From assembly GCA_020848995.1 (NCBI GenBank), contig JADLHA010000046.1, positions 1-51,011 of the forward strand: a stretch of 51,011 nucleotides of DNA, in the 5' to 3' direction. The notes below the pieces were generated by a model. It was not told where the DNA came from. It worked only from the letters and a program-made list of their open reading frames with translations, and made no database searches. Positions 5,237 through 45,113 of this stretch are shown here, piece after piece. Every line of letters starts with the position of its first letter. The stretch's first letter is position 1. Origin of the DNA: Saprospiraceae bacterium. Its GTDB lineage: Bacteria; Bacteroidota; Bacteroidia; Chitinophagales; Saprospiraceae. Both the position numbers and the translations under genes were made by a program.

Positions 5237-5254
5237 CTAACGAACAATTGTTAG
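5237..5254. repeat. copy of the 18-bp palindrome family (15/18)
   Basis: CTAACGAACAATTGTTAG matches the window consensus CTAACGAACGTTCGTTAG at 15 of 18 positions. It coincides with the last codons and stop of the giant T9SS protein (LTIVR, stop), so coding constraint could explain part of the match. Confidence 0.45.
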
Positions 5255-8200
5255 GTCACCGGAAAGGTGCCGGTCGCTCCCCTGCGAAAATTGCACTATG
5301 GCCCGGAAAAGATAGGTGCCCGGAGGACAGGATTTTCCGTTGGTGCGGCCATTCCAGCCCAGCTCTGGACGGTTGCCTTCAAAATCTTCACCAACGAACA
5401 TCCGGTTGCCCCAGCGGTCGAAAATTTCGAGGATGCGGATGCGCTCCATGTTGCCGTAGAGGGTAAAAAAATCATTGACCTGGTCACCGTTGGGGCTGAA
5501 TGCATTGGGTGCGTAAACGCGCTGCTCAAAGACGCGAAGCAGCAGGGTGTCAAAGGCTTCGCATCCATCTGCGCCCTGGACGCGGCAAAACACCCATGCG
5601 TCGTGGTCAGGACGCGCAACCGGATCCGCACACTGGAGGCAGGACAACCATGCTGCACTGCTCCATTCGAGCAAGGAATAGCGACCTGTGATGTCTGCAT
5701 GAAGCGAGACAGGAGCCCCCTTCAGCAGATCGATATCCGGTCCAATATCGACTTGCGGAATTTCCGGTGCGGACAATTGGAAAGAACTGTCGGAAATACA
5801 GCCCAGCGCATCGCGCACCGCAAAAGTGTGGATCCCTTCCGTTAGCATCGTAAACACGGGTGCATTTTGATCATGCTTGCCGTCAATTGAAAAAAACAGG
5901 GGTGCGTGCTGCGAATAAACGTTCGTTAGTTTAAGACTCCCGTAGGGTTTTGTTTCATCACAGGGAATGGGGTCAACTTCCGCGGATCCCCAGTGCGGAG
6001 GCAGGGTGATCTCCAGGGCTACGCTGTCGATGTAAACACAGCGTCCGGAGTATCCTTGAAAAACGAAATGGTGTTTTCCGGGAGAGAGCCCATCCGTAAC
6101 TACGCGGCTTTGATCCAGCAGAGGGCCGGTCCACTGGTGACAGTCGTAAAGACCCCGGAGGAAGACGTTTAGGTCAAAGTGTAAGGGCGCATTGGCACAG
6201 GCATGCAACAGCGTATCGTCGATGGCGTTGCGAACCGGGCAATCGGGAGCTTTGCAACGTATGATGCCGCTGCTGACTTCAGAACACGGGCCATCGTCTT
6301 CGAGCGTCAGGAGGATGGCGGCGCTGTCGCTGGGGGCCTGGACGACAATCTGGTAACTGGTGTCGCTGGTGCGCATTCCGGGCCGCCCTTCGGTCTGGAG
6401 GACCCTGTAATTCCGTACACGGGGAATGCGCTTCCAGGAAAAAACAATCAGGCTGTCGCTGGCTTCACAGTCCACTACCGGCGGTGGCAGGGGAGCCAGC
6501 ACCTCAATGTCTTTAAAAAATTCGTCTAGACAGCGATGGTGGTTTAAGCGCAACCTTGGGCGCCGTTTGCCGGCAATGCTCCAGGAAACGGCCAGCTCGC
6601 GATTTCCGTTCAACTGCGTCGCGGTGCCGCCATCAAAGTCCCAGTTGAAAAGGGCAGAATCTGCGCGGCTACCCGTAAAGCGAATGATGAGGTTGGAGTC
6701 CTGGCAAACGACGTTGTCAGAAATAAACGCGGAAAGAGGATTTTCCCGGACGACGACCACCGTACTTCCGGCATAACGGCAATCCTGGTATTCAAAAACG
6801 GCAAAAACGCGCTGGTTGCCCGACCCCGAGCTGTCGGGATGAAAACTGCCCGCCAGGCTGTCGGTTATGCCTTTGCCATACCAAATCCAACGCCCCCCTG
6901 CCACCGGAGGCTGCGTGCTAGCCTGCAAACTCACCGGCTGCATACCCGGAACCCAGCAGATGGTATCGGGTGCGCTCAGGCTAACGGTCAGAGGAGGACA
7001 GGCTTTTGAGCGACAGGAGATCTCGGCCATCATCTCCCCACAGGGTGGGCGAACGGCGCGGATGCGCAGGCGGATCTCTTGGTCGCGGGATAATCCAACA
7101 AACATCGCGCTGGTGTCGGAAAGGCGAATGAAGGAAGCTCCTTGGAGGGTGTCGAAGAAGTAACTCTCCCCCGGGTGATTCTTCCAGAAAAAGAGAATGG
7201 TGCTGTCAGTGGTCTCACACATGGGTTCGGGCATCACCGGCAAAGGGTGCACAGCAAATTGCCGACAGGCGGAATCCACGCAATTTGCAAGGTCCATGCG
7301 GATGCACAATTCGTGAACACCGCGGGAGACCGGCGGGAGTATCCAGGAGGAATCGGATGTTGCCGTTGTCCAGTCGGTCTGTCCGTTGAGTTTCCAATGG
7401 GTATTGGCTGAATCCGAAGGCATCAGAAGTCTGATGCGAAGGCTGTCGTTTTCGCAGTAATCCGTTGTGCTGAGCGAAAAACCCGGATCGGGAATAGGCT
7501 TCGCGGCAATGTTAACTTGTGAGAAGGCAGGACACCTGGCGGAATCCGGCAGCAGGAAAAATGCCGTATCCGAAAGGATTTCTACAAGAGGCGGGGTGGA
7601 CAAGCTGTGAAGGCTGTCGTCTGAAGGCTGGGTGAAGTACCTGGCCCCTCCCGGGAAGTTGCCATTTTTGATGTGTGCCAATGAAGACAGGTCGACGAGC
7701 GTTCCACGACAAAAACTTTGGTCGTCGATTGAAATGTGCTCTTCGGCAAAAATGCGGATGAAAAATGGCAGTACATCCGTGCAATAGCCGGTACCCGCTT
7801 TGGCATAAAGCATGGTATCCGACCAAAACCTCCACAGGGTATCTCGCATCAGGTCTGTAGAGTCGCAAGCGGAACCATAATGATAGCTTACCGCAACGCC
7901 GGGATTGTTTCGGTCGACGATGGGCAGTTGACCGGGGTCGATCGCCTGTCCCGGACAATACCACAGGCTGTCCTGCTGTACGAGGTCCGCCGGGATTCGC
8001 GATCCGAAAACCTCGACAAAATCGCTCGATGCGCATTCGTGAAGCGAATCGGGTGTGTTGCGCAGGTGTAGAAAATAGCGGCCTGCCGTTTCGACGCGGC
8101 AGGTGTCTGAAAGGGACAGGGTGTCGCCGGCTTCGTTGGTCCAGACGAACCGAATTGCAGGTCCTTTACCCGAGAGGACAGTGTCTGCCCGCAGGGTGGC

Positions 8201-9334
8201 CGCGGTATCCTCGCAGTTGAGATCGCCGCTCTTGTACGCCCTGGCGCGCTGCCATGAGTAAAGCAGGTCGACGTAAAGGATTGAATCGCAAAAAGGGCTC
8301 AATTTCGATTTGAGCACCCATTTGTATTTACCGGTGGAGTCGATGCGCTTGTTTTGAATGACAAAGCTGTCTGGGTAGCAAACGGTGGTGTCGATCCGGG
8401 TTTCGATGGGTTCCAGGTTTTCGACGATCAGGAGGGTAATGCTGTCGCAACCATAGCGGTTTTGATGCTGAAAGGTCCAATGTCCGGAGGTATAGAGCAC
8501 ATTCTGGTAACGGTAGGAGGTCCCGGGGCACACAAAGAAGGGTCCGAGCTCGGTCATAGGAGAGGGCTCTCCGACTTCTACATCCAGGCATACTTCGTTT
8601 CCACTATGACAGGCATTCGTGCCCCGCACACAGATGCGACCTCTGCCGGGGGCATCCCACAAGACCTGGGCTTTCTCGTCTTTTGAGAAGAGAAGAGAGC
8701 CCCCTTCCACCCGCCATTCGTAGCCGCAGGCACCAAAGATCGGAGGAATGGAATAATCAGCCGTTTCTCCAACGCACACGAGGGCCTTTCCCGAGATCTT
8801 CTGCGTCGTGTTGGGTACGGGGGCAACCGTACTTCCAGAGACCACGGTAAACTGAACGTTGCATGAATTCGGTCCGTTCCCGTCGAAGACCAGGTAGTAA
8901 ATGCAACCGGGTTTGAGCGGTTCGGTATTGGTAAAGGACCAGGTCTGGTTGTTGTACATGTTGGTGTTGCAATTGCTAACCAATTTGAAGGTCTGGCAAT
9001 CGTCGGATGCGTAGATGCCCATCTCTACGCCGTTGTTCTGGTTACAGGCAGAGACGGCTACGCTGAAGGTCAGGTTGGCAGATCCCGCCACAAATGCCAG
9101 CCATTGCATGCTGTGGACCACCTGGGTGCAGTAACCGGCGGGTGCTTGTCCCGGTATGGTGTTGGTGGTCCGGGCGCTGACGCCGTTGAGGTCGCAGACC
9201 ATGCATGCGTCTGCACAGGCAGTGGAAAGGGGCACCGGGCTTCCTCCGCAGGGAGGATGCGGCTGTGCGGTGACTTTTGGCAAAACCCCAAAGGCAAAAA
9301 GCCCGCTCACGACGATCAGGATGTGGGCTTTCAA
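5237..9334 (-). CDS. large gliding-motility-type secreted protein with T9SS type-B C-terminal domain
   Basis: A 1365-residue exported protein. It begins with a signal peptide (KAHILIVVSGLFAFGVLPKVTAQ) and a Cys-rich module (CADACMVCDLNG) that I associate with large Saprospiraceae surface proteins. The middle is a chain of PKD/Ig-like and fibronectin-like beta domains (for example ADYSIPPIFGACGYEWRV and FNWDFDGG). The end is a gliding-motility-associated type-B sorting domain: YAPNAFSPNGDQVNDFF, ILEIFDRWGNRMF, WNG, and CPPGTYLFRAIV. It is presumably displayed on the surface as an adhesin-like protein. The start is odd: no in-frame ATG precedes the signal peptide, so a TTG at 9334 appears to be used. 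It converges on the dehydrogenase gene with a 67-bp gap. Confidence 0.9.
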   Translation of the reverse strand: MKAHILIVVSGLFAFGVLPKVTAQPHPPCGGSPVPLSTACADACMVCDLNGVSARTTNTIPGQAPAGYCTQVVHSMQWLAFVAGSANLTFSVAVSACNQNNGVEMGIYASDDCQTFKLVSNCNTNMYNNQTWSFTNTEPLKPGCIYYLVFDGNGPNSCNVQFTVVSGSTVAPVPNTTQKISGKALVCVGETADYSIPPIFGACGYEWRVEGGSLLFSKDEKAQVLWDAPGRGRICVRGTNACHSGNEVCLDVEVGEPSPMTELGPFFVCPGTSYRYQNVLYTSGHWTFQHQNRYGCDSITLLIVENLEPIETRIDTTVCYPDSFVIQNKRIDSTGKYKWVLKSKLSPFCDSILYVDLLYSWQRARAYKSGDLNCEDTAATLRADTVLSGKGPAIRFVWTNEAGDTLSLSDTCRVETAGRYFLHLRNTPDSLHECASSDFVEVFGSRIPADLVQQDSLWYCPGQAIDPGQLPIVDRNNPGVAVSYHYGSACDSTDLMRDTLWRFWSDTMLYAKAGTGYCTDVLPFFIRIFAEEHISIDDQSFCRGTLVDLSSLAHIKNGNFPGGARYFTQPSDDSLHSLSTPPLVEILSDTAFFLLPDSARCPAFSQVNIAAKPIPDPGFSLSTTDYCENDSLRIRLLMPSDSANTHWKLNGQTDWTTATSDSSWILPPVSRGVHELCIRMDLANCVDSACRQFAVHPLPVMPEPMCETTDSTILFFWKNHPGESYFFDTLQGASFIRLSDTSAMFVGLSRDQEIRLRIRAVRPPCGEMMAEISCRSKACPPLTVSLSAPDTICWVPGMQPVSLQASTQPPVAGGRWIWYGKGITDSLAGSFHPDSSGSGNQRVFAVFEYQDCRYAGSTVVVVRENPLSAFISDNVVCQDSNLIIRFTGSRADSALFNWDFDGGTATQLNGNRELAVSWSIAGKRRPRLRLNHHRCLDEFFKDIEVLAPLPPPVVDCEASDSLIVFSWKRIPRVRNYRVLQTEGRPGMRTSDTSYQIVVQAPSDSAAILLTLEDDGPCSEVSSGIIRCKAPDCPVRNAIDDTLLHACANAPLHFDLNVFLRGLYDCHQWTGPLLDQSRVVTDGLSPGKHHFVFQGYSGRCVYIDSVALEITLPPHWGSAEVDPIPCDETKPYGSLKLTNVYSQHAPLFFSIDGKHDQNAPVFTMLTEGIHTFAVRDALGCISDSSFQLSAPEIPQVDIGPDIDLLKGAPVSLHADITGRYSLLEWSSAAWLSCLQCADPVARPDHDAWVFCRVQGADGCEAFDTLLLRVFEQRVYAPNAFSPNGDQVNDFFTLYGNMERIRILEIFDRWGNRMFVGEDFEGNRPELGWNGRTNGKSCPPGTYLFRAIVQFSQGSDRHLSGDLTIVR
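5912..5929. repeat. copy of the 18-bp palindrome family (15/18), intragenic
   Basis: CGAATAAACGTTCGTTAG matches the consensus at 15 of 18 positions, with the right half perfect. It lies within the giant T9SS gene, encoding LTNVY on the minus strand, and uses CTA for Leu, which looks uncommon in this gene. Confidence 0.5.
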
Positions 9335-9339
9335 ACCTT

Positions 9340-9347
9340 CAAAGTTA
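9340..9347 (-). promoter_or_regulatory. candidate -7 element (TAACTTTG) of the giant T9SS gene
   Basis: On the minus strand TAACTTTG is a perfect TAnnTTTG match ending 5 bp before the TTG start at 9334. A transcript from here would begin at or next to the start codon, implying a leaderless or nearly leaderless mRNA. No -33 element is obvious. Confidence 0.45.
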
Positions 9348-9493
9348 ACAAACTCCCGTTACGGGAATTGCACACCTCGTTGCGATTTTTCGTTGGAGCG
9401 GTGGATCGGGCCGAAGCGCCTCATTTGGGGGAGGAGCAGCAATCTGACCTTTGGTCCGTGTGAACAAGCTAAATTCGCCTTTGTTTCGTTTTG

Positions 9494-11302
9494 ATGCACA
9501 TGAAGCGCCTTATTATATCCGCCCTGATTTTCCTTGCCCTGTCTTGTATCCAAGCCCAGGACACCCGCCTTGCGCAGGAGTATTTCAACAACGGCGAATA
9601 CGAAAAGGCTTCTCGCCTTTACCTCGAATTGTACCGGAAGCAGCCCACCAACACCTCCCATTTTGAACGTTATGTCGATTGCGTTCTGGCGCTTCGCGAT
9701 TACGAAACCGCAGAGAGTGTGCTCCGGCAGGAAATGCGCAGACGCCCAAAGGACGCCTTACTGCACATGCAGTTCGGCAATCTGTACGCCGTGCAAAACG
9801 AGGCCGAAAAAGCTGAAGCGCAGTATGAACAAGCCATTGAAAAAATGACGCCTGACGTCATGAGTGTCCACCGTCTGGCCAATGCCTTTGTTCAAAATGC
9901 CCAATACGATTTTGCCCTTCGCGTCTACGAAAAGGGCGAGCGCACGATCAAACCGCCAGCAAAGTTCACTTACAATCTGGCCGACATCCGCCGTCGAAAG
10001 GGCGATCTTCCGGGTATGCTGCGGCATTATCTCGACGGACTGGAGGACAAGTCGGTCCAGCTCCAACATGTGCAGACGCTGATCATCAACTACCTGAACG
10101 AGGAGGCCTATGCAGACCTGCAGGCCCAGTTGTTCGAGCGCATGGAGCGCAATCCCGACCATCGCGAATTTCCTGAGTTGCTGATGTGGTCGTACGTTCA
10201 ACTAAAGGATTACGGGAATGCGATGCGGCAGGCCATAGCCCTCGACCGCATCCGCAACGAAACCGGCAATTCCGTATACAACCTGTCGATGACGGCCTAC
10301 CTCGATGGCGATTACCGTACGGCAGTCGAGGGCTTCCGCTACGTGCGGGACAAAGGCCCCTCAGGGTCATTCTACCACGATGCGTATCGACAGTTGCTCG
10401 TCTCCCAGCGGCAATCCATCGTCGAAGGAAGGCAATATGGAACTGCTGAATTGACACAACTCGAGTCCGATTACCAGAAATACATCGCCGACGTGGGCAT
10501 GAACCACATTTCGGCATCGCTCGTCATCGAGTTTGCAGAGCTGGAGGCCCAGTACCTCGGCAAGCTCGATGCAGCCATAAGATTGTTGGATGCCCTCGTG
10601 AGGATTCCACAGGTGGAGCGGCACATCGTGGCAAAAGCCAAGCTCGACCTGGGCGATTACTTTCTGATCACCGGCGAGCGGTGGGAAGCCACCCTGCTGT
10701 ATTCACAGGTCGACAAGGATTTTAAGGAAGACGAACTGGGCGAGATGGCGCGCTTCAAAAATGCAAGGCTCTCCTATTTTGCAGGAGATTTCGAATGGGC
10801 GCAAGAACAGTTCGATATCCTAAAAAGCGCTACCAGCCGTTTGATTTCCAACGACGCCATAGACCTGTCCGTATTCATCCTCGACAACCTGAACCAGGAC
10901 ACCACCGGGGCCTCCCTGATGCAATATGCATCGGCAGAACTCGCCCTGTTCCAAAACAAGCACGATACCGCGTTGGCCATTTTGGCAGCCATTCCTTTCG
11001 GGGATCCGGAAATTCGCTTTCTGGAAGACGACGTGTGGTACCTGCAGGGTCAGATCTTTGAAGACCAGCAGCGCGACCAGGAGGCATTGGAAAAATACCG
11101 CCAGGTGCTGGAAAAACATTCGGAAGGCATCCGTGCAGACAACGCCTTGTGGAACATGGCGTCTATTTGCGACCACCGCCTGGGAGAGCATGCCCGCGCC
11201 ATGGAATTGTACGAAAAACTCTTCATCGATTTTAGCAACAGCATCCTCGCCGTTGAAGCGCGCAAGCGCTTCCGCGAACTGCGCGGCGATAAACTGCAGT
11301 AG
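9494..11302 (+). CDS. secreted tetratricopeptide-repeat protein
   Basis: A 602-residue protein with a signal peptide (MKRLIISALIFLALSCIQAQ), followed by helical TPR units along its whole length, such as EYFNNGEYEKASRLYLELY, AEAQYEQAIEK and ALEKYRQVLEKHSEG. TPR arrays bind other proteins. It probably sits in the periplasm or on the inner face of the outer membrane, but no partner can be named. Three starts cluster at 9491 (TTG), 9494 (ATG) and 9500 (ATG); I use the first ATG. A possible promoter is TTTG at 9450 with TAAATTCG at 9470 (one mismatch). It converges on the SCO-like gene. Confidence 0.85.
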   Translation: MHMKRLIISALIFLALSCIQAQDTRLAQEYFNNGEYEKASRLYLELYRKQPTNTSHFERYVDCVLALRDYETAESVLRQEMRRRPKDALLHMQFGNLYAVQNEAEKAEAQYEQAIEKMTPDVMSVHRLANAFVQNAQYDFALRVYEKGERTIKPPAKFTYNLADIRRRKGDLPGMLRHYLDGLEDKSVQLQHVQTLIINYLNEEAYADLQAQLFERMERNPDHREFPELLMWSYVQLKDYGNAMRQAIALDRIRNETGNSVYNLSMTAYLDGDYRTAVEGFRYVRDKGPSGSFYHDAYRQLLVSQRQSIVEGRQYGTAELTQLESDYQKYIADVGMNHISASLVIEFAELEAQYLGKLDAAIRLLDALVRIPQVERHIVAKAKLDLGDYFLITGERWEATLLYSQVDKDFKEDELGEMARFKNARLSYFAGDFEWAQEQFDILKSATSRLISNDAIDLSVFILDNLNQDTTGASLMQYASAELALFQNKHDTALAILAAIPFGDPEIRFLEDDVWYLQGQIFEDQQRDQEALEKYRQVLEKHSEGIRADNALWNMASICDHRLGEHARAMELYEKLFIDFSNSILAVEARKRFRELRGDKLQ

Positions 11303-11539
11303 CAATGGTCAGCCCATGTTGACCTGGGCCATGGTGTGCAGTGAGCACTTGCCACCACTGCAAAAAAATTTTAGGGATGCCTGACTGGTTGCAACAGGAT
11401 ATCCCTCCTGTAAACTTTTCCTTCGCATTGAAGATCAGTCCACCTCGTAGAACTCCCCCTCGTGCCTGTCTGCACGCCCATGTGCAATGGGGAGTCATTA
11501 GAAACGGCCCTCTGTGAAAAGAGGAAAAGCAAAATGTGG

Positions 11540-12286
11540 CTAGACGGCTTGTGACCGGCGACCGGCGACGGACAATCCCAGTAGGAGCAACAGCGTAGCA
11601 AAGGGAGCGAGGAGCAGGATCAGGAGGCCTGCGGCTGGTTTTTTAGTTCCCGTGAGCGGGTCGTAGCTGAAACAGGAGAGCATCGACTGGCCACCCGGCA
11701 GCGGGTGTGAGGGAATGAAATGCCGCCGCGTCTCTGCAAACAGCCGCTCCAGGGCCCGGGGATCCCCGGTTACCGAGAGACGCCTGCAGAGGTAACCGTC
11801 GTCATTGATGCCACCGACGAGTCCTTCGTGGTCGAATCCGTTGCGAGCGCTGTCCCACCGGGGCGAGAAACCCACAGAGCGGTTGAGGGAATCGACCTGA
11901 GGACTGGTGGCGAACATCCAGTGAGGATCGTTCTCCAGTCCGTAGCGACGGGCGAGGGTGCGCATATCGTCAACGCAATCGCGCGGATCAAAACTCAATA
12001 CCAGGATCTTATAGGGAAAATCTACGGGCAGCCACTGGGCTGACCCGGCGAGTTCGACCATCAACGGCGTACAAATGCCGGAACACCTCGTGTAGATCCA
12101 TGCGACGGCCAGGGGCCCACCGGAATAAAGCGACGAAAGACGACAGGTCCCCTCCGCGCGGACAATCTCGGCGTCGAACACCTTTTGGAAAAGCAGTTTC
12201 TCCTCCCCCATGCCGTAATCCACGGGAACGGGACCGGCCTGCACGGCCAGGGCGGTAAGGCTCAGCGCCGCAACGAGGGAACGCAT
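11540..12286 (-). CDS. SCO1/SenC/PrrC-type copper chaperone with C-terminal membrane anchor
   Basis: A 248-residue member of the SCO family, which delivers copper to the CuA site of heme-copper reductases. The copper ligands are visible: C68 and C72 in YTRCSGICTPLM (CxxxC) and H153 in GFDHEGLVGGINDDG, within a thioredoxin-like fold. It has a short N-terminal signal sequence and, unusually placed, a C-terminal hydrophobic segment (GLLILLLAPFATLLLLLGLSVAG) that should anchor it. The ATG at 12286 lies within the last codons of the catalytic subunit gene (25-bp overlap), showing operonic coupling. This fits assembly of the CuA centre in the subunit II encoded two genes upstream. Confidence 0.88.
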   Translation of the reverse strand: MRSLVAALSLTALAVQAGPVPVDYGMGEEKLLFQKVFDAEIVRAEGTCRLSSLYSGGPLAVAWIYTRCSGICTPLMVELAGSAQWLPVDFPYKILVLSFDPRDCVDDMRTLARRYGLENDPHWMFATSPQVDSLNRSVGFSPRWDSARNGFDHEGLVGGINDDGYLCRRLSVTGDPRALERLFAETRRHFIPSHPLPGGQSMLSCFSYDPLTGTKKPAAGLLILLLAPFATLLLLLGLSVAGRRSQAV

Positions 12287-13680
12287 TTTTTGATGATGCT
12301 GTAGGTGAACAGGACGAGGGCGGCCAGGTAAATGGTGGCAAAGAATGCCCCCACGAGAGCCATCCACCCGGCATCGGAGAAGAGCTCGGGATACACGTTG
12401 AATCGCCTGGGCACGGAGTAAGCGCCACTCAGGTAAAACATCAACACAAAGCCAAGCCCGCCAATGAGCAACAGAAATATTTTTAAATCATCCGAACGTT
12501 CGTTAGTTTGCTTGCCAGAAAACTCGTTGGCTGCCCAGTGAAAGAAAGCCAAGCTGAACAGCACGTTCCCCAGTACATTGTAGGTGTGGAAGTGGGCGGC
12601 AACCCAGAGGGTGTTGTGGAGGATGAAGTTGTTGGCGATGGTGGCGTCGATCACAGCGCCGATGCCTCCGATCAGCCAGCCCATCACGCCGGTAAAAAAC
12701 AGGGCATTGGTCAGCGACCACTTGATGGGGTTTCTGACCACGAGGGCCAGCACGCTGAACGCCGTGATGGAAGCTGCCGGCAGGCTCGCAAAATAGGAAG
12801 CGTATTGCCCGATGGCCTGAAAGGCCAGGGGTTGTGCAAAATCCATGTACATGTGATGGAAAAAGGCAGTAAGGATAAAGCAAAGCGTGCAATTCCAGGC
12901 AAGCGCCACGTACCAGGTGGTCCGGAAGCGAGGCCTGCCGCTCACTTCGGGGAATAACTCGTACAGGGATGCAAGCCCCAGGTAAAGTACTTCATTAAAC
13001 AACGTGTGGCCGAAGAAGAAAGTCAGGTTCTTCATCAGCAACGCGTCGTTGGTCACCGCCCTGCCGGAGAAATATTCGATGAAATAGAGAACGAGTACGA
13101 CGACGGCCGTAGCCAGGCTGAGCAGAACGCCGACGAGCGATACCGTCGAAATGAGCACCAATGGAGGCGTCTCGACCGCAGGCGCCTTTCTCAGGTGTTG
13201 CCAGGCAAAGGCCACGGGCAGGGAATATTTTTTGAAAATGGCCAGCAGCATGCCGGCAACCCAAACAGTCCAGCCAATGCCCAGCAAGCCTATGCCGACG
13301 AGAAAGCCGGGGCTGGCCCATTTTTCACCAACGGCATAAAAGGGAAGGGGGTATAAAAAGGTCCATCCCGTATGAAACTTCCCGGCAAAAATGACCAGAA
13401 ACAGCAACAGCACTCCGAGTACCGTCATCCCAAAAGCAAAGTAGCCGAGTTTAGGAGAGATGGAGACGTAGCGCTGCAACAGGTAGTGTAGGGCAGCCAG
13501 CCCGGCTACTACCCAAATGCCAATCATGGTAAGGCCGTGTGCGGTCATGGTCGAGTAAAAGCCAACGGGAGAGAGCTGTATGCTGTTGCCCTGATTCAGG
13601 CGCATGACAATTCCGAAGGTCACCGCCACCAAAAACAGGACGAGAACGGTGATGATCCAAAGGGCAGTTATTTTTTTCAT
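12262..13680 (-). CDS. heme-copper reductase catalytic subunit lacking the oxidase tyrosine (probable NO reductase-like)
   Basis: A 472-residue membrane protein with about 12 to 13 helices. Ligands of the heme-copper superfamily are present: H48 (TAHGL) and H365 for the low-spin heme, H363 (AHFH) for the high-spin heme, and H225, H275 and H276 (FFHHMY) for the second metal. The spacing matches B-family (ba3-like) enzymes. In oxygen reductases of that family a Tyr sits four residues after the first metal His (HPxVY). Here the segment is GHTLFNEV, so that position is N229, followed by E230. In cNOR the same position is the metal-binding Glu. The lack of Tyr suggests nitric oxide rather than oxygen reduction, but this is inference. 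It could be annotated as a cytochrome c oxidase subunit I. Confidence 0.85.
   Translation of the reverse strand: MKKITALWIITVLVLFLVAVTFGIVMRLNQGNSIQLSPVGFYSTMTAHGLTMIGIWVVAGLAALHYLLQRYVSISPKLGYFAFGMTVLGVLLLFLVIFAGKFHTGWTFLYPLPFYAVGEKWASPGFLVGIGLLGIGWTVWVAGMLLAIFKKYSLPVAFAWQHLRKAPAVETPPLVLISTVSLVGVLLSLATAVVVLVLYFIEYFSGRAVTNDALLMKNLTFFFGHTLFNEVLYLGLASLYELFPEVSGRPRFRTTWYVALAWNCTLCFILTAFFHHMYMDFAQPLAFQAIGQYASYFASLPAASITAFSVLALVVRNPIKWSLTNALFFTGVMGWLIGGIGAVIDATIANNFILHNTLWVAAHFHTYNVLGNVLFSLAFFHWAANEFSGKQTNERSDDLKIFLLLIGGLGFVLMFYLSGAYSVPRRFNVYPELFSDAGWMALVGAFFATIYLAALVLFTYSIIKKCVPSLRR
12489..12506. repeat. copy of the 18-bp palindrome family (15/18), intragenic
   Basis: CATCCGAACGTTCGTTAG matches the consensus at 15 of 18 positions. 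It lies in the reductase catalytic subunit gene, encoding the hydrophilic loop QTNERSDD between the last helices. Confidence 0.55.
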
Positions 13681-13689: not shown

Positions 13690-14277
13690 TTACCGGGTTG
13701 ATGATTCGTTGCCTGAGATCACGTCGAACGACGCGCTCATATATGCATGTGCTGCTCCGCAGAATTCGATGCAGAGCAGCTGGTAGGTGCCGGGTTCATC
13801 GAATTTCCAGCGAAGCCGGTTTACATACCCGGGCATGGCCTGGGTCTGTGCCAGCAGGTGTCCGCGGTCGTTGTAAATGGCAAAGCCGTGGTTGACATCC
13901 AGGCTGGTCACCCGAAATTCTACGACCTTGCCAGCGTGCAATTGAATGGGCTGTGGTGCCGCAGCAGCACCCTGAGGATCGATGGCTTCTCTGGACAGGA
14001 CGTATGCAAACTGGCGCGCTGCCACGTACACGACCTCCGAAGGATCCTCATCTGAATAGGTGAAATAGGGTGAACGCGCAAAACTCACCGTCGATAGGAT
14101 CACTGCGATTCCGGCGAGCAGCAGAAAAAAGATCAGGCGCTTTTGGTTGGCGTTGGCTAAGCCCCCACGAGGTACCGCAAAGGGAAGAGACGACCGGTAC
14201 ACCCGGTAAAACACGTAGAGGATGGCAATGGCAACCGCAAGAAAAACCACGAGCAAAAAGGCGTGTTTCGGACTCAT
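13690..14277 (-). CDS. CuA-containing subunit II of the heme-copper reductase
   Basis: A 195-residue protein with two N-terminal membrane helices (residues 6-26 and 48-66) and a periplasmic cupredoxin domain. The CuA site is complete: H130 in DVNHGF, then C169, E171, C173, H177 and M180 in CIEFCGAAHAYM. Subunit II accepts electrons from a cytochrome c or cupredoxin and passes them to the catalytic subunit, whose gene starts 9 bp downstream. No heme c motif (CxxCH) is present, unlike cNOR subunit C. I chose the ATG at 14277 because it starts just before the first helix and just after a perfect palindrome. An upstream in-frame start at 14301 would put the palindrome inside the gene. Confidence 0.9.
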   Translation of the reverse strand: MSPKHAFLLVVFLAVAIAILYVFYRVYRSSLPFAVPRGGLANANQKRLIFFLLLAGIAVILSTVSFARSPYFTYSDEDPSEVVYVAARQFAYVLSREAIDPQGAAAAPQPIQLHAGKVVEFRVTSLDVNHGFAIYNDRGHLLAQTQAMPGYVNRLRWKFDEPGTYQLLCIEFCGAAHAYMSASFDVISGNESSTR

Positions 14278-14294
14278 AAACGAACGTTCGTTAC
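14277..14294. promoter_or_regulatory. palindromic operator candidate at the reductase operon start (15/18)
   Basis: TAAACGAACGTTCGTTAC contains the perfect 14-bp palindrome AACGAACGTTCGTT at 14279-14292, which ends only 2 bp before the subunit II start codon. On the minus strand CATTTTTG at 14308-14301 (one mismatch from TAnnTTTG) lies just upstream, so the palindrome would overlap the start of transcription, where a bound repressor would block it. The symmetry resembles TetR-family operators; the regulator is unknown. Confidence 0.5.
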
Positions 14295-14641
14295 GTTGCA
14301 CAAAAATGTCCTCCTGGCCAACGGCAACACATCAGCCGGAAGGACCGCTTCGCATACACCATATATGAGCCCGTTTCCGCATGCGGACATGCGGAAAATG
14401 CGCCCTCTGGCTTGGCTTGGGGGATGCCTGCATTGCTTTTTTCTGCTGGGGCAGAAAGGGCATTCACATCGCAATCAGGCGAAACGGTTGCTGCAAAGCT
14501 ATGATGGCCAAACTATTTCCGGCAATGTCTATGCAATTCAGTCAAATGTTTTTTTGTAAAACGGTCAAAAACACACGCAGCAAACGGAGCGGCATTCAAA
14601 TGTGAATGACACTCACCTGTCTAATGAAGCGGGAAAGGGAC
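14295..14641. other. intergenic region with a strong hairpin; no gene seen
   Basis: About 350 bp without a convincing gene. It holds the candidate reductase promoter at its left end and a 10-bp perfect inverted repeat with a 4-nt loop (TTTCCGCATG at 14374-14383, CATGCGGAAA at 14388-14397). A smaller CATTCA/TGAATG repeat lies near 14593-14608, just downstream of the DUF937 gene. The large hairpin has no T-run on either side, so it is not a classical terminator. Confidence 0.5.
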
Positions 14642-17906: not shown

Positions 17907-18675
17907 ATGTATTTCGGATTTCCCCATCTGTACCTGCCGGAAACGGATTCGACCAATGCACAGCTTCTGAACATGCTGGCAAATTCCGTACCGCAGCACG
18001 GATTTATGGTCATAGCTGACTTTCAGTCGGAAGGCAGAGGACAATTTGGCAGGAAGTGGGTTAGCATGCCGGGGCAGAACCTGCTGGCCAGTTTTATGCT
18101 TGGCCCGCTGGAACATCCCGCAGACCGCATCTTCGACCTGCAACTTGCCGCTTCCCTCGCAATATTTTACAGCCTCGAAGCCTTCGAAATGGGCGATTTG
18201 TCGATCAAGTGGCCCAACGACCTATATTCTGGTGATGATAAGATTGCAGGCATCCTGCTCCAGAATGTCCTCAGGGGCAAACAGGTACACGGTTGCGTTG
18301 CTGGAGTGGGCGTCAACGTCAACCAGTCAGAATTTCCACCAGAACTGCAGGCCACCTCGATGTTTCTCCGGAGCGGCAGGCACTTTCAGGTTCCCGATCT
18401 GGCGGTCGAAGTGCGCCGCCAGCTCCTGCACTGGTTTGCCCGGCTGTCCGATCGGGCGTCCCTGCTGAAACAGTACAACGAACGACTTTATGGACGGGAT
18501 TGCTGGAAGCACTATGCCGAACAAGGGGGCGATCCGTTTTCGGCCATCGTCCGGGAAGTCCTGGACGACGGTCGCATCGCACTTATGGAAAAAAACGGAA
18601 ACTTACGAACGTTCGTTCATGGCACCCTCCAGGGTTCGCCACGCGGACAGACGCCGGAAACGGGCGGTACGGATT

Positions 18676-18692
<17 letters not shown>
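17907..18692 (+). CDS. birA: biotin--[acetyl-CoA-carboxylase] ligase, no DNA-binding domain
   Basis: A 261-residue biotin protein ligase that activates biotin as biotinyl-AMP and attaches it to a carrier domain such as that of acetyl-CoA carboxylase. The biotin/ATP motif GRGQFGRKW is at 43-51, KWPNDLY at 101-107 and KIAGIL at 112-117, with a C-terminal SH3-like domain. There is no N-terminal helix-turn-helix, so it is a group I enzyme that does not act as the biotin repressor. It is divergent from rsfS. Its 3' end overlaps the convergent ATPase gene by 17 bp, and it contains a copy of the 18-bp palindrome near its end. Confidence 0.94.
18602..18619. repeat. copy of the 18-bp palindrome family (15/18), intragenic
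   Basis: CTTACGAACGTTCGTTCA matches the consensus at 15 of 18 positions and includes the perfect 12-mer ACGAACGTTCGT. It lies in the birA C-terminal region (NLRTFVHG), written with TTA and CGA codons that look uncommon in this genome. Confidence 0.55.
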
Positions 18693-28055: not shown

Positions 28056-28067
28056 ATTCCAGATCTG

Positions 28068-28760
28068 ATGTGCGGCAGAGGTTCGCTCACCGTTGTCGAA
28101 GCGGATCTTGAAAAGCGTTTCGATGCGGGTTTTTATTCGGAAGACCTGGAGCGTTACCGCCCTTTGCCCAGTTTCAACATTGCGCCCACGCATTGGCACC
28201 CGGTCGTGCCCCAGGAAGACTCCAAACACTATTGTTACCATCGCTGGGGCCTCATTCCGTTTTGGGCAAAAGATGCCTCGATTGGATCCAAAATGATCAA
28301 CGCCCGTGCCGAGACCGTCATGGAAAAACCTGCCTTCCGCAAAGCCTTTCAAAGCCGGCGTTGTCTGGTGCCCATGGATGGCTTTTACGAATGGCGGCGC
28401 GAAGCCGGTGGCAAGAAGATCCCCATGCGCATCCGGCTCAGGAGCGGAGGTGTGTTTTTCATGGCGGGGCTGTGCGATCACTGGCATGATCCCGTTGGAG
28501 GTCAGACCCTGAGCAGTTTCACCATCATCACCTGTCCTGCCAATGAGGTGGTCGCGCCGTTGCACGACCGGATGCCGGTCATCCTGATGGAGCAGGAGGA
28601 AAGATGGTGGATCGATCCCCACCTCCGGCCTGATCAGGCAGCGGCCATGCTGAAGCCCTTTCCCGACAAACTGCTCGAGGCGTATCGCGTCTCCGACCGG
28701 GTCAACAGCGTTCGCAACAACGATCCCGGTCTCGTCGAACCCGTAGAAGCATCCGGCTGA
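28068..28760 (+). CDS. yedK: SRAP-domain (YedK/HMCES) abasic-site protein
   Basis: A 230-residue SOS response-associated peptidase-like protein. SRAP proteins form a thiazolidine cross-link with abasic sites in single-stranded DNA through Cys2, shielding them from breakage. The catalytic set is complete: C2 (MCGRGS, exposed after Met removal), N78 (INARAETV), E108 (GFYEWRR) and H166 (APLHDRMP). Length is normal. It is probably co-transcribed with the SPOR gene. The 3' end is followed by a strong palindromic hairpin that could end transcription. Confidence 0.95.
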   Translation: MCGRGSLTVVEADLEKRFDAGFYSEDLERYRPLPSFNIAPTHWHPVVPQEDSKHYCYHRWGLIPFWAKDASIGSKMINARAETVMEKPAFRKAFQSRRCLVPMDGFYEWRREAGGKKIPMRIRLRSGGVFFMAGLCDHWHDPVGGQTLSSFTIITCPANEVVAPLHDRMPVILMEQEERWWIDPHLRPDQAAAMLKPFPDKLLEAYRVSDRVNSVRNNDPGLVEPVEASG

Positions 28761-28791
28761 TCTCCCTTTTGGGGCATAGTCCGTTTGAGCG

Positions 28792-28819
28792 ATAAATACG
28801 AACGTTCGTTCGTATTTAT
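28792..28819. repeat. long inverted repeat containing the 18-bp palindrome (14/18)
   Basis: ATAAATACGAA (28792-28802) and TTCGTATTTAT (28809-28819) are perfect 11-bp arms around CGTTCG. Inside lies AATACGAACGTTCGTTCG (28795-28812), 14 of 18 to the window consensus, with the perfect 12-mer ACGAACGTTCGT at its centre. It sits 32 bp after the SRAP stop. The hairpin with AT-rich flanks could also slow or end transcription. Confidence 0.55.
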
Positions 28820-28831
28820 TCTGATTTGTCA

Positions 28832-28861
28832 TTTGAAACTAACATTTGTTAGTATCTATGG
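28832..28861 (+). promoter_or_regulatory. candidate promoter whose spacer is a palindrome
   Basis: TTTG (28832-28835) and TATCTATG (28854-28861, one mismatch to TAnnTTTG) are 18 bp apart. The spacer contains ACTAACATTTGTTAGT (28838-28853), a palindrome with 7-bp perfect arms that shares CTAAC/GTTAG ends with the 18-bp family. A protein bound there would cover the promoter. Transcription would start near 28867, ahead of the structured region and the metalloprotease gene. Confidence 0.4.
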
Positions 28862-28866
28862 ATAGA

Positions 28867-29129
28867 TGGAGCGATCATCTGGTCCATTCGGTTGCTCCGA
28901 AAGGGGAATCGGCGATGTCCCCGTCCCGGGATCGGCCCGGGGCTTTTTTCAGGCGGGGAGTGCGACCGGGGAACCCCTGCGGGGTAGCCGGAACATGGCT
29001 GACGGCAAACTCAATCAGGCAAGTGGCGAACGGATAAACGCATGGCGCCGGTGAATAAACGGCGCTGAAGGGACAAGTTGCCTGACGATACCTTAGCCTG
29101 CATTCTTTCACACCTAAAATTAACACCCT
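28867..29129 (+). ncRNA. candidate structured leader or small RNA upstream of the metzincin gene
   Basis: A 263-bp non-coding stretch dense in stems. GGAGC/GCTCC pairs 28868-28872 with 28894-28898. CCCGGG/CCCGGG (28925-28930, 28936-28941) is followed closely by six T residues (28944-28949), a terminator-like element. ACCCC/GGGGT forms a stem near 28973-28985. TCAGGCAA/TTGCCTGA (near 29014-29021 and 29078-29085) encloses a GCGCCG/CGGCGC hairpin. This could be an attenuator, a riboswitch-like leader, or a small RNA ending at 28949. I recognise no known RNA family. Confidence 0.3.
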
Positions 29130-30716
29130 ATGAGACGACCTATTTTCCCGATTCTCGGGCTGTGGGCAATCCTGCAGTCCGCCACTGCGCAACAAATGGA
29201 GTACCTTTGTGCGTGGGAACCGCCGCAGGGGCAGGCCAGCGCATCCGGCGACAGTTGTCTGGATGTACAGTACATCCTCGACAACTGCATCAAGGTGTAC
29301 ATCCGGTTGAATGTGCACTATTTTGTTGGCGACGACTGCAGCGGCACCCTGCAGCAAACGGGATTGAACCAGGAGACTGCTTACCAAAATACAGAAGCAA
29401 TGATCCGGGCACTCAACCAGCAATTGAACGACAACAAACCCCAGAAGAGGCTGGGCGGCGTTGACCCGCCCTGCATCCCGCTCCGCTTTGTCCTTTCCGG
29501 AGTTTATGTCCATTGCCGGTCTAATGCCGTTGCAGAATTTAACACCACCTTACTCAACGCGGAATTTGGTGTTGACCGGCAGGGAACCGTCAATTTTTAC
29601 ATCGGCCATTTTCCCAACGGTGCAACCGGCGTCGGATACCTGAATGACAACAGCGGTTCCGCTTCGAGTTTCAACCTCTCTACCTGGTGGACGTTGGGCA
29701 ATCTCTATCACGAGTTGGGGCACATATTCGGGTTGAAACACAGCTTTAGCGTCGACGACTGCGATGATACGCCCATTTTTGGGCTAAGCTGGGACAAGAA
29801 CTGCAACGGCATCATTGAGTCTGATATCAATGGCAGACGCAACGAGCGCAACATTCAATGCTGGGGACTGCTCAGTCCCAACGTGGGCCCCGGAGCTCCC
29901 GGGTACGACGACGGCAACGACAATGGCGTCAACGATTGCGAAGAAGTTCCTCCGTGTACACCGAGCCCCTGTTGCTTTGAGGAGAACCTGGACAACAACG
30001 TGATGTCCTATTCTGCTGATAAATCAGCGCTGACGCGGTGTCAGTTGGAAAGGATGCTGCGTGTGATCAGTCAAAGCAAATGCGGCCTCATAGAACAGAT
30101 CGGAGGATGTCCCCCGACAAAGGCATTCATCGACCGTTTGCCCCGGGACCGGGTGGACAATGGGCGCTGCTGTCAGTGCCTGATGCTGGAGGGAAGCTGG
30201 GAAGAGGAATCTTACGAATTTGAACTCTACGAAGTGAATGGTGCCTTGCGCACTCTGGTTTACCAGACCGGCCGCGTGCAGGGACAGGCAACCCGGTTTT
30301 GTTACAAAACCAATGCGGCCTACATCGGCCCTTATCCACTGCTGCGACCGCACACCGCCTACCTGGCCGTGTTGCACACCTTTAATGCATGTTCTGATGA
30401 CGGCTACGAATTTCCCTTTGTCACAGGAAGTGAAGATTGCGAGGTCATTCCTTTTGTCTCCTGGGAAATTGCGCCCAATCCGGTGGAGGACGAATTGCGC
30501 GTTCGCATCGACGGCATGTTTGCCTCAGGAGAGTTGAGCGCAGATGCTTTTCACCTGGGCACACAGACAAACTGGCCGGTGATGGCTCCACGCACACTGG
30601 GTGGCGGAGACCACGAGCTCACCCTGAATACCTCAGGGCTTCCTTCTGGAGCCTACGCACTCATACTCACGAGTGCACAGGGATTGGCAACCTACAAAAC
30701 GTTTATAAAACAGTAA
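29130..30716 (+). CDS. secreted metzincin metalloprotease (pappalysin-like) with T9SS sorting domain
   Basis: A 528-residue exported protease. A signal peptide (FPILGLWAILQSATAQ) is followed by a Cys-rich region and a zinc-protease domain with the extended metzincin motif HELGHIFGLKH (H194, E195, H198, H204). The Met-turn lies in NNVMSYSADKSAL. This matches the M43 cytophagalysin/pappalysin group. A beta-rich module follows, and the C-terminus is a type-A T9SS domain (WEIAPNPVEDELRVRI, GAYALILTS, TYKTFIKQ). It is presumably surface-released and digests extracellular protein. The next gene starts 2 nt downstream, so the two form an operon behind a structured leader. Confidence 0.9.
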   Translation: MRRPIFPILGLWAILQSATAQQMEYLCAWEPPQGQASASGDSCLDVQYILDNCIKVYIRLNVHYFVGDDCSGTLQQTGLNQETAYQNTEAMIRALNQQLNDNKPQKRLGGVDPPCIPLRFVLSGVYVHCRSNAVAEFNTTLLNAEFGVDRQGTVNFYIGHFPNGATGVGYLNDNSGSASSFNLSTWWTLGNLYHELGHIFGLKHSFSVDDCDDTPIFGLSWDKNCNGIIESDINGRRNERNIQCWGLLSPNVGPGAPGYDDGNDNGVNDCEEVPPCTPSPCCFEENLDNNVMSYSADKSALTRCQLERMLRVISQSKCGLIEQIGGCPPTKAFIDRLPRDRVDNGRCCQCLMLEGSWEEESYEFELYEVNGALRTLVYQTGRVQGQATRFCYKTNAAYIGPYPLLRPHTAYLAVLHTFNACSDDGYEFPFVTGSEDCEVIPFVSWEIAPNPVEDELRVRIDGMFASGELSADAFHLGTQTNWPVMAPRTLGGGDHELTLNTSGLPSGAYALILTSAQGLATYKTFIKQ

Positions 30717-33420: not shown

Positions 33421-35817
33421 ATGCAACAACTAAATGTATCCTGGACTAAAGGCACTGACGAAAATGCCCTGGTGTCGTTGCAAAATATCCGAACTAAATG
33501 GAGTAACCGGATTGTGCTAAAGCTTTCAGGCGATTACCTGCAATTGGAAAGCCCCAAGCTACAGGAATATCTGGATGAACTGTTGAACGACCTCGAAACA
33601 GAGGGCATTTCAATATCGCGGGAGCGGCGTTCCTTCCGGGTGGAAGGGATGTCCTGTGCACAATGTGCGCTGAGCATAGAGCGCTTGATCAGGTCCATTC
33701 CTGGTGTACTCGATGCCCGGGTCAATTATGCCAACGCAATCCTCGATGTCGATTCGATTCGGGGAACCGCAGAATCCGGAGACCTTGAAAAGCTGGCGGC
33801 GGACATGGATTACCGGCTGGTGCCCATCGATGAGAAGGGTGCGGGGACAGATCCGGATGAATCGGAATCTTCGGTGCGTATTGGCAACTTGCGCCGCAGG
33901 GCCACTGCAGCCATCGTCCTCTGCGTTCCCATCGTTGCTCTGGGTATGTTTGCCATGCATTGGAAATGGACGTACTGGATTCTTTGGGGACTGTCTACCC
34001 CAGTCATCTTCTTTCTTGGCAGAGATTATTTTAAAAGAGCGATCGCCTTGGCGCGAAACCGCAGCATTGGTATGGATACTTTGGTGGCCATCAGCTCGGC
34101 GGTGGCTTATGGAACGAGTGTGGCATACCTCATTCTGGGCAAACAGGGAAATGATCATGCTGACGTGGAGCCGGTATATTTTGAATCGGCCAGCGTCGTC
34201 ATCGCCTTCCTGCTCCTTGGAAAGTGGCTGGAGGAAAAGACCAAGGCGCGCACGGGATCGGCCCTTCGGGCGCTGATGCAACTCCACCCCACCTCGGTGT
34301 TGCGCGAACACGGCGACGGGGAATTCGAAGCCATCGATCCGGTGCGGATCCAGGAAGGGGATGTCTTGCTCGCCCGTCCGGGCGACCGCATCGGTGCAGA
34401 TGGTGTCGTCGTATCGGGTGCAACCACGATCGACGAACAAATGATGACCGGCGAATCAATGCCGGTGTTCCGGCAAATGGGCGACTGGGTCACCGGTGGA
34501 ACCGTCAATCTGGATGGCTCCATCCGCTACCGGGCCACACGGGTAGGAGCATCCACGCAGCTTGCACGCATGATCCAATGGGTGCGACATGCCCAATCTA
34601 CAAAGGCTCCCGTACAGCGACTTACTGACCGAATTGCCTCTGTATTTGTCCCTGCAGTGATGTTGCTTGCAGCAATGGCCTTTGTGGTCTGGATGCTCGC
34701 AGATCCGCACGAGGGCTTTGCCCACGGACTTCTCGCCTTTGTCACCGTTTTGGTAGTTGCCTGTCCATGTGCCCTCGGACTGGCGACCCCTACTGCCCTC
34801 ATGGCGGGCATAGGCAAGGCCGCTCGTCACGGCATCCTGGTTCGCGATGCAGAAAGCCTTGAGCGCGCGCGAAAGGCCGACGTCGTCGTATTCGATAAAA
34901 CGGGCACCCTGACCGAAGGGAAACCAGAACTAACGAACGTTCGTTGGTTTACCGGAGAGGAGCAGATCACCAGGAGACTCGGTGCGCTGGCAAGGCAGTC
35001 GGAACATCCCCTTGCCCGCAGCCTTGCCGTCTCTTTTCCGGGGAAGGATGCCCTGCAAGAGGGCATCCTTTCGAATCATCCAGGACTTGGAATAGCATGG
35101 AGTTCGGGGCAGGAGCATCTGTATCTGGGCAGTGAGCGTTTTTACCGGCAGATCAGGGGAACCCAGGCACCGGAGGATGGTGAAACTGGCGCGGCGGGAA
35201 GTTGCGTGCTGTACTTCGGAAAAACGGAACTGTATGCCCGATTCACTTTTCAGGACCGCCTGCGTCCTCAAATCAAAGAGCTGGTTGACCAACTGAAGCG
35301 TTCGGGCATCGATCCCATCATGTTGACGGGAGACCGGGAAGCGGAGGCACAAAGAACGGCCATGGAGGCTGGTCTGGAAACATGGCATGCAGGGCTTCGC
35401 CCCGAAGACAAAATGCACATCATCGCTGGCTTGCAGCAACAGGGCAAAAGGGTGGCCATGGTTGGCGACGGCATCAACGATGGACCTGCGCTTCACCAGG
35501 CTGACCTGAGCATTGCCATGGGACTTGGAACTGACCTCGCCAAAGAAACGGCCAACATGATCCTGCTCGGATCAGACCTGCGCAAGCTTCCGGTAGCGCT
35601 CGAACTGTCCAAAATGACCATGCAGACCATCCGACAAAATCTGTTTTGGGCCTTTATTTACAATGTTGTAGGCATCCCCCTGGCGGCTGGAGTACTGTAT
35701 CCGGGTCTGGGAATTTGGCTTACTCCCATGATGGCAGGGGCTGCCATGGCCTTCAGCAGCGTCAGTGTGGTGCTCAACAGCCTCAGACTGCTCTACCGGC
35801 CTCTGTCGCGACGGTGA
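33421..35817 (+). CDS. copA: copper-translocating P1B-type ATPase
   Basis: A 798-residue heavy-metal pump that most likely exports Cu(I). An extra N-terminal segment (1-70) resembles a degenerate metal-binding domain without Cys. It is followed by an HMA domain with GMSCAQC (C79, C82). The pump core has TGES (343-346), the ion-path motif CPCALGLATP (C448, C450), DKTGT (D492) and GDGINDGPAL. The last helices carry FIYNVVG and MAFSSVSVVLNSL, fitting the YN and MxxSS residues of the Cu(I) class. It starts 128 bp after a terminator, with no clear promoter seen. A near-perfect copy of the 18-bp palindrome lies within the gene, just after the phosphorylation site. Confidence 0.93.
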   Translation: MQQLNVSWTKGTDENALVSLQNIRTKWSNRIVLKLSGDYLQLESPKLQEYLDELLNDLETEGISISRERRSFRVEGMSCAQCALSIERLIRSIPGVLDARVNYANAILDVDSIRGTAESGDLEKLAADMDYRLVPIDEKGAGTDPDESESSVRIGNLRRRATAAIVLCVPIVALGMFAMHWKWTYWILWGLSTPVIFFLGRDYFKRAIALARNRSIGMDTLVAISSAVAYGTSVAYLILGKQGNDHADVEPVYFESASVVIAFLLLGKWLEEKTKARTGSALRALMQLHPTSVLREHGDGEFEAIDPVRIQEGDVLLARPGDRIGADGVVVSGATTIDEQMMTGESMPVFRQMGDWVTGGTVNLDGSIRYRATRVGASTQLARMIQWVRHAQSTKAPVQRLTDRIASVFVPAVMLLAAMAFVVWMLADPHEGFAHGLLAFVTVLVVACPCALGLATPTALMAGIGKAARHGILVRDAESLERARKADVVVFDKTGTLTEGKPELTNVRWFTGEEQITRRLGALARQSEHPLARSLAVSFPGKDALQEGILSNHPGLGIAWSSGQEHLYLGSERFYRQIRGTQAPEDGETGAAGSCVLYFGKTELYARFTFQDRLRPQIKELVDQLKRSGIDPIMLTGDREAEAQRTAMEAGLETWHAGLRPEDKMHIIAGLQQQGKRVAMVGDGINDGPALHQADLSIAMGLGTDLAKETANMILLGSDLRKLPVALELSKMTMQTIRQNLFWAFIYNVVGIPLAAGVLYPGLGIWLTPMMAGAAMAFSSVSVVLNSLRLLYRPLSRR
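34930..34947. repeat. best copy of the 18-bp palindrome (17/18), intragenic
   Basis: CTAACGAACGTTCGTTGG differs from the consensus at one position. It lies within copA, encoding LTNVRW. The gene otherwise appears to favour CTG and CTC for Leu, so the CTA codon here suggests the DNA motif itself may be kept. Confidence 0.65.
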
Positions 35818-39570: not shown

Positions 39571-39589
39571 ATGAGAATTGTCGATGGAA

Positions 39590-39597: not shown

Positions 39598-39695
39598 ACA
39601 AGAAATTAAGGCGGATTGGTTCCCTTGGGCCACGCACTTTACAGGCCGTTGATGTCTTGAGGTTCGATTTGAAGTAGGAACAGCCGGTGGACGGC

Positions 39696-39703
39696 TATCT
39701 TTG
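39696..39703 (+). promoter_or_regulatory. -7 element TATCTTTG of the PAP2-like/dapD operon
   Basis: A perfect TAnnTTTG followed by C, 21 bp before the ATG at 39725. TTTG at 39668-39671 is a possible -33, with a longer than usual 24-bp spacer. Confidence 0.6.
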
Positions 39704-39724
39704 CGTGCAAACAGCTGATTTAAC

Positions 39725-40393: not shown

Positions 40394-40394
40394 T

Positions 40395-41210: not shown

Positions 41211-41274
41211 ACCTTTGCCGGAACCCCGGTGTTTTCATAGGATTCCGGCACGGAGGGCTGAAATTATTTTCTGC

Positions 41275-41281
41275 TATTTTG
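41275..41281 (+). promoter_or_regulatory. possible -7-like element of the DUF4175 gene
   Basis: TATTTTG followed by C is one base short of TAnnTTTG and lies 26 bp before the ATG at 41308. The same shortened form (TATCTTG) appears before the flippase gene at 49254-49260. Confidence 0.35.
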
Positions 41282-41307
41282 CGTTTTAATTAATTGAACA
41301 CTTGGTG

Positions 41308-45065: not shown

Positions 45066-45095
45066 GGGATGGTCCTGGTTTTTAACAGAAGATAG

Positions 45096-45113
45096 CTAAC
45101 AAACGTTCGTAAG
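45096..45113. promoter_or_regulatory. 18-bp palindrome copy (16/18) upstream of the ybeY fusion gene
   Basis: CTAACAAACGTTCGTAAG matches the consensus at 16 of 18 positions and ends 13 bp before the ATG at 45127. It is followed directly by TATCCTG, resembling the TATCTATG that follows the related palindrome at 28838-28853, so both may overlap the -7 region of a promoter. Confidence 0.55.

Follow-up and report, generated by a model that had tools for sequence, protein, structure and literature searches.

Why should an 18-bp palindrome recur in unrelated genes, and in the gaps between genes, along one stretch of bacterial DNA? The question is raised by positions 1 to 51,011 of contig JADLHA010000046.1 from a Saprospiraceae bacterium (assembly GCA_020848995.1), which we refer to as the window. 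The initial annotation listed eight copies of the palindrome and, as they lie in unrelated genes and intergenic regions alike, suggested a genome-wide element. The eight listed coordinates are correct (the copy at 28795 has 4 mismatches to the 18-mer, the other seven have 1-3; see Table 1) and the suggestion is borne out: none of 100 dinucleotide-shuffled versions of the window yields a match at up to 3 mismatches, and the window's genome (G000; 3,141,349 bases in 52 contigs) contains 148 copies at that threshold against 1 for the reversed pattern. This confirms that the signal is real and genome-wide; the window is relatively rich in sites, with 7 where the genome-wide density would predict 2.4 (P 0.012). 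As argued below, the sites probably belong to a TetR-based, nucleoid-occlusion-like system with a layout resembling that of Noc and SlmA, for which one of four TetR proteins, TetR-B, is the most likely binder.

Among nine genomes of the genus the 18-mer is abundant in two, namely G000 and a sister genome, G064 (167 copies, against 2 for the reversed pattern). The scan of sister genomes proposed with the initial annotation did not refute its claim, since one sister carries the motif in full number, though the other seven show no excess (0-4 copies); the case rests on two genomes, both of them drafts. Across 60 further genomes from the family the counts are again 0-4 each. A search for the exact 18-mer over 84,980 species (one genome per species, records close to the window's genome possibly being left out) returned 14 places: three in the metagenome-assembled genome (MAG) Bin_50R, two in the Chitinophagales MAG SKYG42, two in a Treponema MAG and one in each of seven other genomes. 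At up to 3 mismatches these ten genomes contain 167 (Bin_50R), 6 (SKYG42), 5 (Treponema) and 1-3 sites (all others), and both the site count and the places in Bin_50R equal those of G064.

SKYG42 and the Treponema MAG, with two exact 18-mers each, were considered as carriers of a comparable site system, a reading that was rejected because they have just 6 and 5 sites. The six copies of SKYG42 (G068), where the control has 0, include two exact ones and two that deviate by 1 mismatch; they are found on contigs C130, C136, C99, C166 and C196, in open reading frames (ORFs) or at their ends and not adjoining TetR genes, with a TetR-B homologue on C136; perhaps they form a small site set of a different kind. 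We also tried a variant of the motif, TAACNNACGTNNGTTA (up to 1 mismatch), on the sister genomes, which gave 133 matches in each motif genome and 0-5 in the other seven. Its reversed control gave 16 and 18 in the motif genomes and 11-75 in the other seven, from which it follows that the background of so loose a pattern is both high and uneven.

The two motif genomes allow the fate of individual sites to be followed. The window is collinear with contig C21 of G064 (approximately 86-90% identity), where each of its eight sites recurs either unchanged or with a single change. Of the 26 sites on the contigs paired between the two genomes, 18 could be aligned; the alignment takes in one of the nine sites on G000:C28, the other eight corresponding to a contig outside the fetched set, and leaves aside C12, C27 and C32. 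In these 18 sites 21 of 324 letters are substituted (6.5%), against 441 of 2088 flanking letters (21%; Fisher P 1e-11), and 16 of them stay within 4 mismatches in G064. The two sites that go beyond this, together with one that has three changes, are all located on the skew-minimum contig, indicating that individual sites do turn over. A codon-matched null, on which the initial annotation had made its claim depend, gives a clear outcome: 28 coding sites are seen in 678 predicted genes (803 kb, nine G000 contigs), against a mean of 1.0 and a maximum of 4 in 30 synonymous-codon shuffles. The intragenic sites are thus no by-product of codon use. Genes were called with a simple codon-usage finder, and gene edges are approximate. 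Taken together, these comparisons show that the sites are under purifying selection.

Such selection bears on the idea of a repeat without a binder, i.e. a mobile or mutational element (HIP1-like, REP-like or an uptake signal). Many copies confined to two related genomes might be expected of such an element, which we nevertheless regard as highly improbable: the sites are point-mutation variants that selection has kept, they are missing over hundreds of kilobases, and their conservation fades approximately 3 bases outside the 18-mer (23 sites), which points to an element the size of a protein site rather than a longer repeat. A HIP1-like iterated palindrome, one of the options of the initial annotation, is not favoured either, as the 18-bp site reaches about 150 copies, far below the numbers of HIP1.

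Table 1. Copies of the palindrome in the window, with their surroundings and their state in contig C21 of G064 (T9SS, type IX secretion system).
Feature	Position	Strand	Surroundings	State in G064:C21
Palindrome copy, 3 mismatches	5237..5254		Overlaps stop codon of T9SS-signal (CHU_C) ORF 5237-9334	Kept, 1 change
Palindrome copy, 3 mismatches	5912..5929		Within CHU_C ORF 5237-9334	Kept, 1 change
Palindrome copy, 3 mismatches	12489..12506		Within COX1-family ORF 12262-13680	1 change, giving 4 mismatches
Palindrome copy, 3 mismatches	14277..14294		5' end of COX2-family ORF 13690-14301 (outside it if the called start at 14277 is correct)	Kept, 1 change
Palindrome copy, 3 mismatches	18602..18619		Close to 3' end of biotin/lipoate ligase-family ORF 17907-18692	Identical
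Palindrome copy, 4 mismatches	28795..28812		No called gene at 28760-29196, yet ORF 27942-28832 (-) spans the copy	Identical
Palindrome copy, 1 mismatch	34930..34947		Within P-type ATPase (copA-like) ORF 33421-35817	Identical
Palindrome copy, 2 mismatches	45096..45113		Gap between ORF end at 45065 and next ORF start at 45127	Identical

Two further observations concern the window itself. The 254-residue ORF that follows the last copy (45127-45891, + strand) matches YbeY (residues 23-137) as well as the DNA-binding domain of O6-methylguanine-DNA methyltransferase (residues 152-231), and is either a fusion or a questionable frame. In addition, a 29-bp piece at 50855-50883 matches four places 71 bp apart on G064:C21, suggesting a tandem array there.

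A clue to a function lies in where the sites are absent. On the 480-kb contig G064:C1 the last site (up to 3 mismatches) lies at 83.5 kb and is followed by 397 kb without any, a region that includes a skew maximum near 260 kb and in which three 4-mismatch matches are present. The 211-kb contig G000:C48, which is syntenic with G064:C1:98.9-309.9 kb at 82% identity, has no site even at 4 mismatches. Both contigs carry a dif-like sequence (C1:149,961 in G064 and C48:51,215 in G000; called with a consensus that we take to be that of dif), with 26 of 28 letters alike; the two occupy equivalent gaps, flanked by orthologous genes, where the surrounding sequence is otherwise unalignable. From skew and the dif-like site, which are independent of the palindrome sites, we infer that these site-free contigs of the two drafts represent the terminus region. 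Within 175 kb of the skew maximum of G064:C1 there are 0 sites where 15.8 are expected (P 1e-7), and on G000:C48 0 where 9.9 are expected (P 5e-5). For G000:C48 and C24 together the count is 2 sites in 406 kb, the remainder of the genome having 146 (P 1e-7), and G064:C1 and C2 have 5 over 734 kb, as opposed to 27 over 489 kb of other fetched G064 contigs (Fisher P 4e-7); all these P values are post hoc, as contigs were fetched for looking site-poor or site-rich. The site-empty contigs have an ordinary CpG ratio and an ordinary density of AACGTT.

At the opposite end of the skew, sites occur at a normal level. A cumulative-skew minimum of G064 falls near 60 kb on contig C14 (parS-like site at 38.3 kb), and the syntenic contig G000:C38 has a matching skew change and a parS-like site at 56.6 kb; the former contig has 6 sites over 100 kb and the latter 5 over 57 kb. 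Three matches with up to 3 mismatches at 6-10 kb of G064:C1 were omitted from the gene-placement, selection and terminus counts. Together with their 4-mismatch neighbours these weak matches (1646-13349 of the contig) recur every 1743 bp, suggesting long near-identical repeats, probably within a single gene.

Outside the genus, the 18-mer is found in a telling context. An exact copy precedes a TetR gene by 9 bp in Terrilactibacillus and by 8 bp in Paenibacillus, next to an ORF that reads as a putative MFS transporter; another stands immediately ahead of a TetR start in Phenylobacterium and a further one ahead of a broken TetR gene in Peribacillus. In Treponema two 3-mismatch copies are located between a TetR gene and its neighbour. 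The best reading of the palindrome, judged from these neighbourhoods, is that of a TetR-type operator sequence. In Terrilactibacillus and Paenibacillus it would be a local one, with a single site per genome at up to 3 mismatches, whereas here about 150 sites are dispersed. A LacI-type operator, prompted by the central AACGTT, was rejected, as neither G000 nor G064 has a LacI gene (one of the nine genomes of the genus has one). The initial annotation had named a nucleoid or segregation protein site and a widely acting TetR-like regulator as separate options; the two merge into a TetR-type operator that is dispersed along the chromosome but missing near the terminus.

An operator of TetR type naturally raises the option of a global transcription factor with a large regulon, and global TetR regulators of the HapR/LuxR type exist. 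We counted the placement of 71 sites on the fetched contigs of both genomes (omitting G064:C21, the orthologue of the window, and counting other orthologous pairs twice). Coding sequence holds 45 of them, convergent gaps 13, tandem gaps 11, divergent gaps 1 and a contig edge 1, against sequence shares, pooled over both genomes, of 86.7%, 2.7%, 6.7%, 3.5% and 0.5%. G000 alone gives a similar picture (28, 8, 7, 1 and 1 of 45 sites), with P 2e-5 for the excess in convergent gaps and P 0.013 for the convergent-versus-divergent split. Tandem gaps, some of which hold promoters, thus have more than their share, as a regulon would predict. Nonetheless, the sites are not concentrated in promoter regions, divergent gaps are not preferred, and the excess in convergent 3'-3' gaps, where promoters are unexpected, argues against a regulon, which also gives no reason for the site-free 397 kb. 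A regulator acting at promoters, as had been considered, is consequently not favoured, and we think a global regulon very unlikely. In one convergent gap (G000:C15:27157-27216; L201:10157-10218) motif-like palindromes follow one another in 20-bp steps, forming a cluster, and site pairs 18-48 bp apart are found at other places too.

Which protein could bind the sites? Each of the two motif genomes encodes four TetR proteins (TetR-A to D). TetR-B, C and D have relatives in other genomes of the genus, and for TetR-A none were seen in the other seven. Identity between the two genomes amounts to 95% for TetR-B, 98% for TetR-C, 95% for TetR-D and 84% for TetR-A. The protein most likely to be the binder is TetR-B, a candidate of 186 residues (G000:C32:53346-53903, - strand) with a TetR_N domain at 55.5 bits (Pfam cut-off 24). 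Its predicted recognition helix shares on average 5.8 of 10 residues with five TetRs (two Bacillales, which are 80% identical to each other, Phenylobacterium, Treponema and SKYG42, the latter found by search with TetR-B and hence not independent), against 3.2 for TetR-A, 2.4 for TetR-C and 3.6 for TetR-D. In both genomes a site lies between TetR-B and a convergent glycosyltransferase gene, and the homologue in SKYG42 (30%) is on a contig carrying two of its six sites. The best NCBIfam match of TetR-B is RefZ (NF037937; 63.9 bits, below the curated cut-off of 180) and its second PDB match is 3vpr, PfmR, which is described as the closest structure to RefZ in PMC6657595. Upstream of TetR-B a 27-bp inverted repeat (L027:1689-1716 and L026:1418-1444), with identical 11-letter arms and a 5-letter loop that differs between G000 and G064, is perhaps a terminator hairpin. 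A binder was also sought at the double site of G064:C5 and at two near sites of G063:C36, and none was obtained.

The same system could be served by another of these proteins, an option that overlaps with the one above and differs in the protein only. TetR-D has SlmA as its best NCBIfam match (NF007015; 71.4 bits, cut-off 120) and SlmA chains as its first seven PDB matches; TetR-A reaches 26.3 bits with that profile, and TetR-B and C are not listed at E <= 1e-5, so that none of the four attains the curated SlmA cut-off. In favour of TetR-A is that, alone among the four, no relatives of it were seen in the remaining seven of the genus, and that its operon is closely followed by a site, at 3 mismatches in G064 and at 4 in G000. 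However, the recognition helices of both proteins match the motif-linked TetRs less well than that of TetR-B, and for TetR-D the sequence GTGAGTACTCAC, which we take to be the SlmA site, has just 1 match at up to 1 mismatch in nine G000 contigs. Moreover, a D-like gene is present in G067, a genome without sites. We consider TetR-A or TetR-D rather unlikely as the binder. An SlmA-like TetR in Saprospiraceae is an observation in itself (TetR-D, G000:C24:35906-36046, + strand, L032; D-like gene in G067).

A number of observations pull against a nucleoid-occlusion-like system built on TetR-B. With respect to the chromosome map, the parS-like pattern does not stand out from its control, which has 3 and 1 matches where the pattern has 1 and 2, dnaA is on contigs other than the skew minimum (G064:C6 and G000:C29), and the assumed dif consensus has matches at 2-3 mismatches on other contigs, one of them in the window. 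A milder skew maximum, near 80 kb of G000:C28, comes with 9 sites on that contig, and G064:C8 (1 site in 138 kb) and G064:C2 (3 sites in 254 kb) are also poor in sites with nothing to place them beside the terminus. With respect to the operator, no TetR neighbour was noted for the exact copies in Rhodopila, Actibacterium and Acidisphaera (3 of the 7 single exact copies), nor for either exact copy in the Treponema MAG. As for the binder, candidates were drawn from two DNA-binding families, TetR and LacI, and the two dependences among the five compared TetRs count here as well. Over 24 helix-turn-helix residues TetR-A ties with TetR-B for the Treponema protein (14 each), there is no site in the promoter region of TetR-B itself, and G063 has a TetR-B orthologue (37% identity) without an excess of sites.

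Overall, the pattern resembles that of nucleoid occlusion: many dispersed, sequence-specific sites (148 and 167 against 1 and 2 reversed) that are under-represented at the terminus as placed by skew and dif-like site (0 in 397 kb and 0 in 211 kb). For SlmA (24-52 sites) and Noc (approximately 70) such under-representation is taken to let division begin there (PMC4726725, PMC4331003 and PMC6657595). By analogy, a TetR-family protein, most likely TetR-B, would bind the palindromes across the chromosome with the exception of the terminus region, and its dimers on the DNA would label the nucleoid along the arms and near the origin. Assembly of the division ring would be hindered over site-carrying DNA and permitted once the site-free terminus region reaches midcell, as for SlmA and Noc; division control of this kind would be the likeliest output.

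A chromosome-organising TetR protein without a role in division would leave much the same traces. In that case the sites would build or mark a domain of origin and arms (through bridging, condensation or segregation) and the terminus would be handled otherwise. Distribution, placement and conservation of the sites fit equally well and do not separate it from nucleoid occlusion, and close site pairs and clusters, such as the 20-bp steps on G000:C15, are in its favour. On the other hand, the best-described site sets of like layout that we met, those of SlmA and Noc, act on division (PMC4726725, PMC4331003 and PMC6657595). We hold a purely structural role, the main rival, to be of low probability.

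The likeness to known systems lies in the layout, as the candidate proteins fall outside the SlmA and RefZ families by curated cut-offs. SlmA of Escherichia coli and other Gammaproteobacteria likewise is a TetR-family binder (here a predicted one) of dispersed palindromes scarce at the terminus, the SlmA-binding sites (SBS; PMC6657595 and PMC4726725). It differs in the number (24-52 against about 150) and sequence of its sites; TetR-B has no SlmA match in its NCBIfam listing, and that of TetR-D is below cut-off. The Noc-binding sites (NBS) of Bacillus subtilis are also palindromic and cover most of the chromosome, being absent from the terminus region (approximately 70; PMC4331003 and PMC4726725). 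Noc, however, is a ParB-family protein with a 14-bp site, and here we find an 18-bp site of TetR operator type in twice the number; this link to TetR operators points to a family other than ParB (no ParB search was made). RefZ of Bacillus, finally, is a TetR protein and the best NCBIfam match of TetR-B, with near-palindromic chromosomal sites (RefZ-binding motifs, RBM) tied to division (PMC6657595). It has about five fixed sites near the origin and on the arms against 148 here, and TetR-B scores far below its cut-off.

A literature search covering few subscription journals returned nothing on nucleoid occlusion in Bacteroidota or Flavobacterium, or with SlmA in Bacteroidetes, nor on FtsZ and division in Saprospir-named taxa, and no relevant title for pieces of the motif. 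The restriction of the sites to two of nine genomes suggests that the system arose within one genus of Saprospiraceae. Tentatively, and with slightly less than even confidence, it might be argued that this is a third, independently evolved system of nucleoid-occlusion type caught early, in which an ordinary TetR repressor was recruited within the genus and about 150 sites were gained outside the terminus, within genes as well as in convergent gaps. As the TetR candidates amount to four genes, the claim is directly testable. If true, it would add a new lineage and a new site to the principle of nucleoid occlusion. The seven site-poor relatives, one of which keeps a diverged TetR-B orthologue, would then allow one to ask how a chromosome acquires a site map that excludes its terminus.
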